Assembly: GCA_947623685.1 (NCBI GenBank)
Contig: CANQHF010000012.1
Location: 1-37,325, forward strand
Length of the DNA: 37,325 bases
Source of the DNA: an uncultured Bacilli bacterium
GTDB lineage: Bacteria > Bacillota_I > Bacilli_A > RF39 > UBA660
Direction: 5' to 3'
Both the position numbers and the translations under genes were made by a program. Every line of letters starts with the position of its first letter. The first letter of the stretch is position 1. The notes under the pieces were generated by a model that was not told where the DNA came from, searched no databases, and was given only the letters and a program-made list of their open reading frames with translations. Shown in pieces: positions 2,333 through 31,898 of the stretch.

Positions 2333-2992
2333 TTACGAATCCGTTGTACTATATGTCAAAGTTATGTCGCCAAATGTAACGTCAAAGTCTCCGTCGGCAA
2401 CAGAAGCGTTAGTATCATAATAAATACCAATAGAAAAGGATTCAAAAGTTTCTTTTTCTAAAGGATGACCTGTTATATTATCTTGTGTAATATATTCACC
2501 ATATGGTTTCGCACCACTATAATATATTCGAAGTAATATACCTTCACAAGCTTTATTAACTAAATCTTGTGATGTACCTTGTTTTGCAGTACATGTTTTT
2601 TTGCCAAACTCAATTTTCTTTAAATATGCTGTATATTTTCCTTGGTTAGTTACATAAAATCGCCATTCATCATATTCACTAGGATTTGTAAGTGTTGTTT
2701 TTATGCCTGTTATTTTTGGATGCAACGGATCATTATTATCTATTGTTGCATTAGTTCCATGCCCAACACCTAATGGTCTAATAGGATTAGTTTCAACAAC
2801 CGTGTCTGAACTTGAAAACAATACCTTAAAGTCTGATGAATCTGGTGTTACTGTTGCAGTTGAATTAATATTTAGATTTTTAGAAAATGCTGAAAATCCT
2901 ATTGATAATCCTATTACTCCAATAGTAAGTACCATGATTATTATTATTTTAGTGTTTTTATTATATCTTTTTCTTGTTCTTTTACTATTCAT
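2333..2992 (-). CDS. Exported surface protein, SipW/TasA-type N-terminus (copy 2)
   Basis: 219-aa secreted or membrane-tethered protein of unknown role. Seen: basic residues 1-15 (MNSKRTRKRYNKN), one hydrophobic segment about 16-33, then GFSAFSKNLNI, which resembles the signal region of SipW-dependent proteins. The mature part is beta-rich and ends FGDITLTYSTTDS. Two Cys (CTAKxGTSQ...C) are shared with the neighbour and could form a disulfide. It is a tandem paralogue of 3141-3815: both ends are almost identical and the middle differs. Strong RBS AAGGTGG. Its promoter (3023-3050) carries a G9 spacer, so expression may switch. No sortase motif and no dedicated peptidase gene nearby. Confidence 0.85.
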   Translation of the reverse strand: MNSKRTRKRYNKNTKIIIIMVLTIGVIGLSIGFSAFSKNLNINSTATVTPDSSDFKVLFSSSDTVVETNPIRPLGVGHGTNATIDNNDPLHPKITGIKTTLTNPSEYDEWRFYVTNQGKYTAYLKKIEFGKKTCTAKQGTSQDLVNKACEGILLRIYYSGAKPYGEYITQDNITGHPLEKETFESFSIGIYYDTNASVADGDFDVTFGDITLTYSTTDS

Positions 2993-3022: not shown

Positions 3023-3050
3023 ATAATATCACTAACCCCCCCCCGGTCAA
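3023..3050 (-). promoter_or_regulatory. Promoter with G9 spacer, likely phase-variable (copy 2)
   Basis: On the minus strand TTGACC (3045-3050), then nine G (3036-3044), TTAGTGA, then TATTAT (3023-3028): a 16-base spacer. One extra G would give the optimal 17. Homopolymer slippage in this position is a known phase-variation mechanism in other bacteria. Transcription would start about 20-25 bases before the RBS of the gene at 2992. Confidence 0.75.
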
Positions 3051-3068
3051 GTTTTTTAGAAAGCTGTG

Positions 3069-3100
3069 GAAAACAAATTGAAAAATCGCTTTTAAAAAAA
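3069..3100 (-). repeat. Conserved upstream element, one of three copies
   Basis: A roughly 30-base AT-rich block (2262-2292, 3069-3100, 3891-3920), containing GAAAACAAATTGAAAAATCG on the plus strand, lies just upstream of each TTGAC box. Conservation exceeds that of the bases between it and the -35 box. It could be an UP element or a protein site, or merely follow the duplication of the unit. Confidence 0.6.
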
Positions 3101-3121
3101 ACATACTTTCTTTTGTATGTT
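3100..3121 (-). terminator. Terminator after surface protein 1
   Basis: Seven-base-pair hairpin AACATAC/GTATGTT, loop AAAAGAAA, followed on the minus strand by a run of T. It lies between the two surface-protein genes, so each is a separate transcription unit. Confidence 0.75.
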
Positions 3122-3140
3122 TTATTACTTAATTTATTAT

Positions 3141-3815
3141 TTAGGAATCAGTTGTACTATACGTTAAAGTTATGTCTCCAAACTCAACATCAAAGTCTCC
3201 GTCGGCAAGTGGAGGATTATCAAAATTACGTAAATAACCTATCCATAAATAGATTCTTTCAGAAGAATTTTTTTCTAAAGGATGATTTGTTATATTATCT
3301 CTCGTATTTTCTAAAGCCTTGGTGTTTACCTGCTCACCTACAGTTATAAAAAGAGACGTCTTTTTACATACTTCATCAACTAAAATTTGTGATGTGCCTG
3401 GTTTTGCAGTACATGTTTTTTTGCCAAACTCAATTTTCTTTAAATATGCTGTATATTTTCCTTCATTTCTTACGTAAAAACTATAATCAGCAGATTGATC
3501 TGGTCCTGTAAATGTTGCTTTCATTCCAGTTATTTTTGGATGCAATGGATCTTTATTATCTATTATTGCATTAGTTCCTGTCCCATTATGACCTCCCGGC
3601 GTAATAGGATTAGTTTCAACAGCCGTTTCTGAACTTGAAAACAAAACTTTAAAATTAGATGGATCTGGTGTTACTGTTGCAGTTGAATTAATATCTAGAT
3701 TTTTAGAAAATGCTGAAAATCCTATTGATAAGCCTATTACTCCAACAATAAGTACCATGATTATTAATATTTTAGAGTTTTTATTATATCTTTTTCTTGT
3801 TCTTTTACTATTCAT
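3141..3815 (-). CDS. Exported surface protein, SipW/TasA-type N-terminus (copy 1)
   Basis: 224-aa paralogue of the protein at 2333-2992. Seen: the same start MNSKRTRKRYNKN, hydrophobic segment and GFSAFSKNLDI; shared STATVTPD, FKVLFSSS, HPKITG and the KYTAYLKKIEFGKKTCTAK block; the same ending FGDITLTYSTTDS. Residues about 72-110 and 150-200 differ in sequence and length, so variation is central. One conserved Cys pair. RBS AGGTGG before ATG. It has its own G9 promoter (3845-3872) and terminator. Likely an alternative surface or matrix component; the function is unknown. Confidence 0.85.
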   Translation of the reverse strand: MNSKRTRKRYNKNSKILIIMVLIVGVIGLSIGFSAFSKNLDINSTATVTPDPSNFKVLFSSSETAVETNPITPGGHNGTGTNAIIDNKDPLHPKITGMKATFTGPDQSADYSFYVRNEGKYTAYLKKIEFGKKTCTAKPGTSQILVDEVCKKTSLFITVGEQVNTKALENTRDNITNHPLEKNSSERIYLWIGYLRNFDNPPLADGDFDVEFGDITLTYSTTDS

Positions 3816-3844
3816 TTTTCCACCTTTTTTTATTTACTATGTTT

Positions 3845-3872
3845 ATAATATCACTAACCCCCCCCCGGTCAA
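3845..3872 (-). promoter_or_regulatory. Promoter with G9 spacer, likely phase-variable (copy 1)
   Basis: Minus strand: TTGACC (3867-3872), nine G (3858-3866), TTAGTGA, TATTAT (3845-3850); 16-base spacer, identical in design to 3023-3050. The conserved upstream block lies at 3891-3920. Confidence 0.75.
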
Positions 3873-3925
3873 GTTTTTGAAACAATTGTGGAAAACAAAT
3901 TGAAAAATCGTTTTAAAAAAATTAT

Positions 3926-3948
3926 AAAAAAAGATGCTTTAAGCATCT
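3926..3948 (-). terminator. Terminator of nagZ-like gene
   Basis: GATGC/GCATC stem directly at the stop codon, followed on the minus strand by seven T. Confidence 0.8.
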
Positions 3949-5293
3949 ATTTTTCCATATCATACATTAAACCTTTATAATATTTCCATGCTAATACTTT
4001 AAATGTCATTTTATCAATTATTGATTCCGTTAGGTTACCATTTTCTATATCTTTTTTTACATCATTTATGGCATTTTCATAATCAGTTGCAATTATTAAA
4101 TCGTTACCTGCTAAAATAGACCTTCTTATGGCATCTTTATCAGTTATAGCTTTCATATTTATATCATCAGTCATTATTATTCCGGTAAATGACAATTCGT
4201 TTCTTAAAACGTTATGAACACTTGCGGATAATGATGCTGGATTATCTTTGTCTAATGCAGGCACTATGTTATGACTTACTAACACTGCTTCTGCCTTAGC
4301 TTTTATTCCTGCTCGAAACGGTGGAATATCATCTTCAAATAATTTAGAATAAGTTCTATTATCAGTGGTTTTAGACTCGTGGGTATCAGCGTTATCTCCA
4401 TAACCTGGAAAATGTTTTAAAACGTATGATACTTTTGAACCTTTAGATGCATTTATAACGGTTTTTGCATATTCACTTGTTATTTTAGTGTCTTCTTTTA
4501 TGGTTCTATCATATATATAGCTTTCTGGATCAGTTGCAACATCAACTACTGGTGCTAAATTAACGTTTATTCCCAAATCTTCTAATATGTCCGTTTTATT
4601 TATCGTATCTTGTTTTATTAAATTCATACCACCTTCTTGATATAATTCCGATGGAGATTTAAAAGGAGATTTAACCAAATTAGGGTTACTACTTATTCTT
4701 ATTACTTTTCCGCCTTCTTCATCTACCGCGATTAATAATGGTATTTTTGATGCTGCCTGGTAATTATCTATCATATTTATTACTTCTTGTTTTGTTTTAT
4801 CCTTAAAATCTTTTTCATATAGTACATAACCACCAAATTTATATTTTTTTAAATCCTCGATTTGATTTTTATCTGGTAATCTAACTAAAAATATTTGGCC
4901 TATTTTTTCATCTAATGATAATGTTTTAAGTTTATTATATGCTAAATTATAAAAGTTACTAAATATATCATCATCATCAAATTGCGATAAAAAATCTTCA
5001 TCATACAAACTAGTTGATAAAACATTTACGCTTTGTTTTTCCGTAGCTTTATTTAACTTTCCATCATAATTTATTTTTATATTATCCCCAACTTCATATA
5101 AATCGCCATATTTACCAACGAAAGTGTATATAATATTATCCTTATCCATAACTTTAATAGAATTACCAGAAACCTTTAAAACTGATGCCTTAATACTTGA
5201 TGTTTTACTCCTCTTGGCAACGGGATTAACTAGCGTGGCAGTTAAGATGCAAACAAATATTATTGATAAACAAATCACTACTTTTTTATTCAT
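3947..5293 (-). CDS. nagZ: GH3 beta-N-acetylhexosaminidase, NagZ-like, membrane-anchored
   Basis: Glycoside hydrolase family 3 enzyme expected to remove terminal GlcNAc from muropeptides or other glycans outside the cell. Seen: N-terminal signal anchor (VVICLSIIFVCILTATLV), a small beta-rich domain about residues 30-90, then the GH3 TIM barrel from about 115: DEEGG, KHFPGYGDNADTH (the loop with the catalytic His of NagZ-type enzymes) and IIMTDDINMKAI with the Asp nucleophile. 448 aa without the second GH3 domain, as in NagZ. Start supported by AAAGGA 8 bases upstream. It is next to the two surface-protein genes but has its own terminator; no strong promoter was found. Confidence 0.92.
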   Translation of the reverse strand: MNKKVVICLSIIFVCILTATLVNPVAKRSKTSSIKASVLKVSGNSIKVMDKDNIIYTFVGKYGDLYEVGDNIKINYDGKLNKATEKQSVNVLSTSLYDEDFLSQFDDDDIFSNFYNLAYNKLKTLSLDEKIGQIFLVRLPDKNQIEDLKKYKFGGYVLYEKDFKDKTKQEVINMIDNYQAASKIPLLIAVDEEGGKVIRISSNPNLVKSPFKSPSELYQEGGMNLIKQDTINKTDILEDLGINVNLAPVVDVATDPESYIYDRTIKEDTKITSEYAKTVINASKGSKVSYVLKHFPGYGDNADTHESKTTDNRTYSKLFEDDIPPFRAGIKAKAEAVLVSHNIVPALDKDNPASLSASVHNVLRNELSFTGIIMTDDINMKAITDKDAIRRSILAGNDLIIATDYENAINDVKKDIENGNLTESIIDKMTFKVLAWKYYKGLMYDMEK

Positions 5294-5345: not shown

Positions 5346-5816
5346 TTAAATACTTTTTATGTTTTTATTTATAAATTCTTTATTATAATTTATATAATCA
5401 TTTAAATATTTATAAAAGCACCATTTAAAATAACCATATACATCATCTTTTACTTGCATATGATTTAAATTTATTTTTTGTAATTCTTTATTAGTTAATA
5501 TAAAATATTTATCAAGATATCTTTTTCCTTTTATATCATAAGCAAATCCATTAATATAAATATATATGTGTGAAATAGATGCGTAATTTTTATCCGCAAC
5601 AACAAATTTTGCTTTCTTATATATACTTTTTAGAGTTCTTGCAAAATAAAAACAATATCCACTAGTAAATGTTTTATACATATTAAAATATAAAAAATCA
5701 TCTTTACCATGATAATATTCTTGCGTTGTGTTATAAGCTTTTTTAATTAGCTCAATAACACCTTCTACATTTTCTTCTAAAAATTCATTTATCTGTTTAT
5801 CTACGTAATGTCTCAT
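5346..5816 (-). CDS. Small putative papain-like Cys-His-Asp protein (paralogue 2)
   Basis: 156-aa protein, no signal peptide, paralogous to 1554-2003. Shared: KTFTSGYCF (C55), a His (H83) in a beta strand and NGFAYDIKGKRY (D94). The order and spacing C-x27-H-x10-D fit a papain or transglutaminase-like active site. The family pattern GxC..fa..L...H....ldG..yD..G also occurs in uncharacterised phage and plasmid proteins (recalled, not checked). AAGGA precedes the ATG. The promoter TTTACT-17-TACAAT overlaps the terminator of the serS-end fragment. Substrate unknown. Confidence 0.75.
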   Translation of the reverse strand: MRHYVDKQINEFLEENVEGVIELIKKAYNTTQEYYHGKDDFLYFNMYKTFTSGYCFYFARTLKSIYKKAKFVVADKNYASISHIYIYINGFAYDIKGKRYLDKYFILTNKELQKINLNHMQVKDDVYGYFKWCFYKYLNDYINYNKEFINKNIKSI

Positions 5817-6104: not shown

Positions 6105-6422
6105 TCAACCTGCTATGTCATCCAAAGAATTAATGAATAGATTAGGATTAAAATCAAGATTATCATTTAGCTTATCTATAAAATTTTTTATCGATTCATC
6201 TTCTAATGAATATTTAATGAAATCCAAATCCAAATCACGAGTAGCACGGCGCAAGTCATTTGAAATGTTATGCATAACAACTCCGCCCTTTATTGTTATA
6301 TTTTTATTAAATTTACTTTTAGAAATTGCTAGTAATATTATATCTTGAGCAACTTTTGCTGTAGCATCAATTTCTTCATATCCTATTTCTTCATACTTTT
6401 GGATAAGATTATATAAATTCAT
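6105..6422 (-). pseudogene. AbiEii-type nucleotidyltransferase toxin, C-terminally truncated
   Basis: 105 aa matching only the N-terminal part of the AbiEii/AbiGii toxin family (type IV toxin-antitoxin and phage exclusion). Seen: KGGVVMH followed by RRATRDLDLDF, the nucleotidyltransferase GG...DxD core. It ends at TGA after SLDDIAG; usual members are over 200 aa. The next bases show no continuation in another frame that I recognise. The ATG overlaps the stop of the antitoxin gene (TAATG) with AAGGAGG inside that gene. Probably inactive, since the C-terminal domain is gone. Confidence 0.8.
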
Positions 6423-30916: not shown

Positions 30917-31831
30917 CTAATTTTCCACTATGTTTATTTTATCCAATAACATATTTAAATAATCAATATCATCTATTTTGCTTATGCCAAATACTTTTAA
31001 TCCTAAATCTTTTAATGATGCACCTATGTGATATAACTTATTTTTATCTATTATTATGAACCTATCATGAAATACACTTGTATATCTTATTTCTAGTTTT
31101 GGATACTGGCTATTAAACTTTTCTATGTCTAATTTTGTTATATTACTTTTCTTACTTGTTATTATATATACTATTACATTTATGTTTTTTTTAGTTAATA
31201 TATCTAATGTTTTTTTATCTACGTAATTATCTATTATTATAATTTCTTTATCTGCTTTACTTATTATATCTACAAGTAAACTATAAGCATCATATATTTC
31301 TCCATTATAAAATAACTTACTTTTTAATTCTTCTTTTTTATCAAATTTATCAAATAATTCTTCTATTTTTATATTATGCTCTATTAACGTGCTTTTTATA
31401 TAATCTGTTTTATTTTCTATTGCTATCATTCTTTTAAATATATCTTTATTTTCATTTATAAACTTTCTCATTGATACAAATGCATTCATTATGTTTACAC
31501 TTACTCTTGCGGCATCTTTTGTTCTTAATACGCTTGATAACATTGCAACTCCTTGCTCTGTAAATGCATATGGCAACTTTCTTGTTCCACCGTAATTGTT
31601 TAAACTTGAAGTCCCAATCTGGGACTTCAAGTTATTATATTCCCTAGATGTTAACTGAAAATAAAAATTACTTGGAAATCTTTCTAAATTACGTTTTACT
31701 GCCTGATTTATAGTTTTTGTGCCATTTGTACACCCATATAAAACAGCTAAATCACTATCTAACATCACTTGTTTTTCTCTTACTTCATATATTAAATCTT
31801 TTATATCAATCTTTTCTTTTAACGCATCCAA
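30917..31831 (-). CDS. ORF6N-domain protein with PLD-like C-terminus
   Basis: About 304 aa. N-terminal ORF6N DNA-binding domain known from phage and bacterial regulators: VMLDSDLAVLYGCTNGTKTI, RFPSNFYFQLT and LPYAFTEQGVAMLSSVLR (residues about 20-110). Middle helical. C-terminal part shows strands and HDRFIIID...HIGASLKDLG, like a phospholipase-D-fold HxK/R...D motif with Arg for Lys. Role unknown; relatives occur in prophages and accessory regions. The open frame starts with a GTG lying in the RBS; AGGTG then TTG at 31831 is preferred. A perfect palindrome lies inside the gene (31603-31633). Confidence 0.82.
   Translation of the reverse strand: MDALKEKIDIKDLIYEVREKQVMLDSDLAVLYGCTNGTKTINQAVKRNLERFPSNFYFQLTSREYNNLKSQIGTSSLNNYGGTRKLPYAFTEQGVAMLSSVLRTKDAARVSVNIMNAFVSMRKFINENKDIFKRMIAIENKTDYIKSTLIEHNIKIEELFDKFDKKEELKSKLFYNGEIYDAYSLLVDIISKADKEIIIIDNYVDKKTLDILTKKNINVIVYIITSKKSNITKLDIEKFNSQYPKLEIRYTSVFHDRFIIIDKNKLYHIGASLKDLGLKVFGISKIDDIDYLNMLLDKINIVEN
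31603..31633. repeat. Perfect inverted repeat inside the ORF6N gene
   Basis: Fourteen-base arms (AACTTGAAGTCCCA and its complement) around a three-base loop. It encodes the NLKSQIGTSSL segment between the two conserved ORF6N blocks. Not followed by a T run, so it is not a typical terminator. Confidence 0.85.
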
Positions 31832-31898
31832 ATTAATCACCTCTCATACTTATATTTCTCCATAACTTTTAATTTTCCCCCCTTAAAAATTAAAAAAA

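Follow-up and report, generated by a model that had tools for sequence, protein, structure and literature searches.

Switching by a homopolymeric run placed between the -35 and -10 elements of a promoter has been proven for porA of Neisseria meningitidis and for tp0126 of Treponema pallidum, as described in PMC7864442. According to the same paper, the poly-G promoter of tp0126 has its best activity at a spacing of 17. Variation is also proven for Treponema tprL, whose runs range from 7 to 11 G with the vast majority of molecules carrying nine, and at tprE, tprG and tprJ a CRP homologue acts together with the poly-G run (PMC7864442).

Here we describe promoters of comparable layout in a genome of Candidatus Aphodocola, a genus of the GTDB order RF39 and family CAG-433 (PMC8035907). 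The window, that is the whole stretch of DNA that was analysed, comprises 37,325 nucleotides. Literature searches for RF39 together with phase variation, and for poly-G combined with promoter spacer, found nothing.

Two poly-G promoters of the window

The minus strand of this DNA carries two promoters, at 3023-3050 and 3845-3872, that read TTGACC-GGGGGGGGG-TTAGTGA-TATTAT, where GGGGGGGGG is a tract of nine G. An earlier note on this DNA had described these boxes, the G9 tract and a spacer of 16 bases, and both promoters match that description exactly. Promoter 1 is composed of the -35 element TTGACC (3045..3050), the G9 tract inside the spacer (3036..3044), the remaining spacer part TTAGTGA (3029..3035) and the -10 element TATTAT (3023..3028). 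The corresponding elements of promoter 2 are found at 3867..3872, 3858..3866, 3851..3857 and 3845..3850. Both -10 elements are of the extended type (TGA-TATTAT), with the TGA extension at 3029-3031 and 3851-3853 respectively; the extended -10 of promoter 1 is kept in the other copies of this genome and in 14 of the 18 genomes of the genus. Upstream of each promoter, on the same strand, lies a conserved TTTTCCACA box (3065..3073 for promoter 1, 3887..3895 for promoter 2) that is absent from the earlier note. When the whole window was scanned for runs of seven or more G, just the two promoter tracts were found, and the 6 observed G7 matches compare with a mean of 0.19 in shuffles.

The -10 elements end 29-30 bases upstream of the start codons of two minus-strand open reading frames, which encode paralogues sharing 67% identity. 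The first protein has 219 aa (2333..2992), with an N-terminal membrane helix and a beta-rich ectodomain predicted from its translation, and the second has 224 aa (3141..3815). Both genes belong to exported paralogue families, in agreement with their earlier description as exported paralogues. The AlphaFold model of the 224-aa protein consists of a helix at residues 13-38 followed by beta strands and is of moderate confidence (mean pLDDT 70.8); a fold search with this model returned no significant match (best E 0.0024, TM-scores low). A Pfam scan of both window proteins gave no family above cut-off, PF12389 (camelysin/TasA) included, and TIGR04090 was matched by neither.

The paralogue pair and a GH3 gene (3947-5293) are flanked by YunG-like genes (PF24591) at 1554-2003 and 5346-5816. 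Further along the window, a short AbiEii-like fragment (6105-6422) and an ORF6N-domain gene (30917-31840) are possible mobile-element or defence remnants.

A promoter class in the genome, the genus and the family

The 28-base promoter string is present in 14 exact copies in the 1.24 Mb assembly. With variants included, 33 of the 34 runs of seven or more G found genome-wide lie inside a promoter of this type, and with about 33 poly-G promoters this genome has the most in its genus. The two window promoters belong to this class of roughly 33 members, which is of the housekeeping-sigma type (TTGAC, poly-G run, extended -10), so that the earlier picture of two genes with four expression states had the scale wrong. 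The common cassette runs from GTTTTCCACA over about 13 variable bases, CTTGACC, G9, TWNNTGA and TATTAT to NAACATAG.

The cassette precedes the family of the window proteins (MNSKRT...) and the exported families MHKRNN, MEKNKG, MEMILLKKQ... and MKEEKNHVGRP.... Most poly-G targets have an N-terminal membrane segment followed by an ectodomain, as surface or secreted products do. Contig C27 (L066 1165-9123) holds a tandem array of ten related exported paralogues, seven of them with poly-G promoters, two with promoters of ordinary spacer and one without a recognisable promoter of its own. The cassette also stands ahead of a 93-aa gene that has a 706-aa gene behind it (contig C14) and ahead of a YukD/EsaB and WXG100 type VII secretion operon (contig C18). 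At the type VII secretion locus (L075 285-2218), the poly-G promoter precedes genes for one YukD-like and several WXG100 proteins. Taken together, the predicted targets of the promoter class are exported coat- or matrix-like protein families and a type VII secretion operon.

Where orthologous or paralogous promoters lack the run, they have an ordinary 17-base spacer in its place but retain TTGAC and TGATATTAT. In front of the type VII secretion operon, this genome (G000) and G005 have a poly-G spacer, G007 and G014 an interrupted one, and G001 an ordinary sequence of 17 bases. For a large sigma factor gene, apparently located behind the same upstream gene, the spacer is poly-G in G009 and G012, whereas G004 and G011 have an ordinary one of 17 bases. 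Similarly, in the C27 array the promoters of two of the ten paralogues read TTGACC-TAAAATTATGTAGGTGA-TATTAT (or TATCAT): their ends are unchanged, and the spacer is an ordinary one of 17 bases. Since the middle differs in these comparisons and the ends do not, we conclude that the poly-G tract is a real promoter spacer, as the earlier note had assumed, and that the run is located between predicted -35 and -10 elements in the manner of porA and tp0126.

Poly-G cassettes are found in 14 of the 18 Candidatus Aphodocola genomes. Among the 90 listed cassettes of the genus, 78 have pure runs of 7-11 G and the other twelve are interrupted or without a run; the longest run is nine G in 47, ten in 14 and eight in 12. 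Their spacers range from 14 to 21 bases, with 16 (47 cassettes) and 17 (22 cassettes) being the commonest.

In genomes sampled from the family, a relaxed search for TTGAC, a run of seven or more G and a -10 element gave matches in 28 genomes out of 193 and in 25 genera out of 148; the counts per genome include double matches of one promoter. The reversed pattern, used as a control, gave zero matches in every genome. In these other genera the flanks of the run vary by genus, some having G8 and others G9. Their targets are mostly proteins of the SipW/TasA kind with an N-terminal membrane segment: PF12389 scored above cut-off in 4 of the 9 targets scanned and TIGR04090 matched weakly in two. Proteins of the TasA/camelysin family (PF12389) are SipW-dependent matrix proteins, and tasA of Bacillus subtilis is controlled by SinR/AbrB rather than by a poly-G run. 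PF12389 is thus matched by four of these targets of other genera and not by the window proteins.

A scan of genome contigs for strain-level variation gave matches in sister species of the genus, in one Bacilli MAG (CALVZF) and in one Virgibacillus, the latter with no plausible gene downstream. On CALVZF010000036 (L092) a poly-G promoter without the box, with a spacer of 15, precedes an ATG that apparently starts an ABC-transporter-like ATPase. Viral contigs scanned for the poly-G promoter yielded nothing.

Run length, spacing and slippage

The earlier note had proposed that slippage of the G tract switches the promoters, and that a tract fixed at nine G in all reads and relatives would speak against it. 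The tract is not fixed, with 7-11 G in the genus. Otherwise similar promoters on contigs C9 and C10 of G005 have G10 and G11 respectively; G10 on C68 of G012 corresponds to G8 on C10 of G014, with downstream sequences 97% identical; and G026 has G8 and G9 copies with identical downstream flanks. As read from the assemblies, run length differs between otherwise near-identical loci, both among paralogues and between sister species. The approximately 13 bases between the box and TTGAC differ freely among copies while the run stays pure. In the pure copies of this genome the stretch from the run to the -10 element is always 7 bases, and consequently the length changes fall in or beside the run.

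In sister species, longer runs go with a shorter remainder of the spacer (spacers of 18 or less, rho -0.57, p 2e-4, a descriptive value only, the copies being related by duplication), and this compensation holds the spacing near 16. Spacers of 17-18 are found in 9 of 11 interrupted runs, in which slippage would hardly be possible, compared to 18 of 70 pure ones, which mostly have 16. The ordinary TTGACA/TATAAT pairs of this genome have their spacer peak at 17, followed by 16, which agrees with the earlier note in taking 17 as the ideal spacing. Other genera, however, keep 16: with the best-scoring -10 in each of the 65 copies examined, the spacer is 16 in 38 and 17 in 4, against 9 and 15 for the ordinary promoters of this genome (p 9e-6, again descriptive, with copies related by duplication).

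Within a genome the distribution of run lengths is narrow. Exactly nine G are found in 28 of the 33 tracts of this genome, and run length is equal in 41 of 49 paralogue pairs at 78-84% identity; on both counts the copies of this genome are not randomised. In most of the other genomes with several copies, 75-100% of these have the modal length. MutS is intact in this genome and present in the poly-G genomes sampled, and for this reason slippage may be slow. The same finding led us to reject loss of mismatch repair as a cause. An intramolecular G-quadruplex seems unlikely, each cassette having a single G run. The proposed switching is partly supported: a real spacer, differences of one or two G and exported families agree with it, but copies that are not randomised, a spacer of 16 in other genera and the presence of MutS do not favor it.

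Among single explanations, the best is that promoter strength is tuned by slipped-strand changes. We regard this as just about probable and as the likeliest reason for a pure G run at these promoters. Slippage would be why the run is kept. With one G more or less, the spacing between -35 and -10 would shift, with 14-15 being weak or off, 16 the working or default state and 17 stronger, and the -10 would at the same time move relative to the upstream activator box. The expression of each gene would then become heritably variable between cells. Selection holding the majority state at about 16 would account for the narrow length distribution. A dominant length in a consensus assembly is compatible with minority variants, since tprL varies yet mostly has nine Gs.

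The upstream box, rival explanations and known systems

The consensus of the DnaA box is TTWTNCACA, and from its fit to this consensus we take the TTTTCCACA box to be a DnaA-box motif. The same word is the commonest box word between rnpA and dnaA, the probable oriC (L237, G000 C7 26303-26517), with five copies. Most Aphodocola cassettes carry TTTTCCACA about 45 bases upstream of the -10, and of the 75 cassettes with a box, 71 have it at a distance of 44-46 from the -10, also when TTGAC is displaced by 3 bases. The box varies mainly at position 5 and then at position 3, as the DnaA consensus expects. Its presence follows the state of the tract: in this genome the box accompanies 26 of 27 intact tracts, 0 of 3 short or interrupted ones and 0 of 3 promoters without a tract. 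The association is looser in sister species, where the figures for the same classes are 26/32, 8/17 and 0/7. In genus g36 a DnaA-box-like word is fixed 14 bases upstream of TTGAC. By sequence, a DnaA-type box is present at a set distance, the arrangement predicted for a DnaA-regulated promoter. The nearly constant distance suggests regulation beyond slippage. A literature search for promoter activation by DnaA found nothing.

These observations speak for a fixed promoter that does not switch, the main rival explanation, which we consider possible but would not expect to be correct. The G run would be a structural or recognition element of a promoter that is weak alone and needs the protein of the TTTTCCACA box, most simply DnaA; its length would be held by selection for correct spacing, and slippage would be noise. 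The constancy and DnaA-like variation of the box, its frequency at the probable oriC, its co-occurrence with intact tracts and the fixed word in g36 all fit such a promoter, as do the narrow length distribution within genomes and the spacer kept at 16 across genera. Many poly-G genera, however, lack the box: none was found at the poly-G promoters of G049, G097 and G061. Moreover, ordinary spacers stand in for the run at orthologous promoters, and a recognition element should allow some substitutions whereas the run is mostly pure. The joint loss of box and tract may also be mere decay of unused promoters.

A fixed DnaA-linked promoter and slippage may both be true. It is conceivable that slippage tuning is combined with a shared DnaA activator, which would make the choice of coat protein heritably variable and tied to replication initiation in a layout that is family-wide, although we think this full combination doubtful.

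Alternatively, the G run may have no function of its own and belong to a repeated 5' module that was spread and homogenised by duplication or recombination among paralogue families. The near-identical 5' modules of tandem arrays, with up to ten paralogues on C27, are what such spreading would produce. We find it improbable as a general cause, as the run precedes unrelated genes (the type VII secretion operon, sigma factors, the 93/706-aa pair) and has differing flanking words in 25 genera. Purity also lasts where the neighboring bases have diverged, and selection on purity in unrelated promoters would already be largely the case.

Finally, large sigma-70-family genes located directly behind a poly-G promoter in G001, G005, G009 and G012 would point to the site of a dedicated alternative sigma factor, a highly improbable explanation that we reject because sigma gene and poly-G promoters disagree in their occurrence across species (this genome, the richest in poly-G promoters, shows no such large sigma factor, while G004 and G011 lack poly-G promoters despite having one) and because the -35 and -10 elements are housekeeping-like and common to ordinary promoters. 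The large sigma genes themselves (L207, L229, L230 and L231 in G001, G009, G005 and G012, respectively) are open frames of 615-806 aa with C-terminal extensions, and their relatives in other sister species have ordinary promoters.

Known cases of poly-G promoter switching come from a few pathogens, Gram-negative bacteria and spirochaetes, and concern individual loci or small gene families. In gut Bacilli with small genomes, this layout extends to tens of promoters in a genome and to 25 genera or more, mainly ahead of one class of exported protein. The porA promoter of Neisseria meningitidis is alike in having a G run in the sigma-70-type spacer of a surface-protein promoter, with spacing setting its strength (PMC7864442). 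Unlike porA, which is one locus with proven variation, the present class in gut Bacilli amounts to about 33 promoters in one genome, for which variation is proposed. Treponema pallidum tp0126 and tpr resemble it as poly-G promoters of surface-protein genes; Treponema has far fewer loci, the start site of tprL is four bases past the run, the one predicted here about 7 bases past TATTAT, and the available part of PMC7864442 mentions no DnaA-box motif at the Treponema promoters.

If switching is true, common gut commensals would owe much of their surface diversity to these promoters. If it is not, the upkeep of pure G runs at so many promoters would have to be explained in another way, and the DnaA-box link would be the interesting part. 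The fim promoters of Bordetella have a poly-C run between an activator site and the -10, and slippage alters that distance. The fim run replaces the -35 element, whereas in the promoters described here TTGAC is kept.
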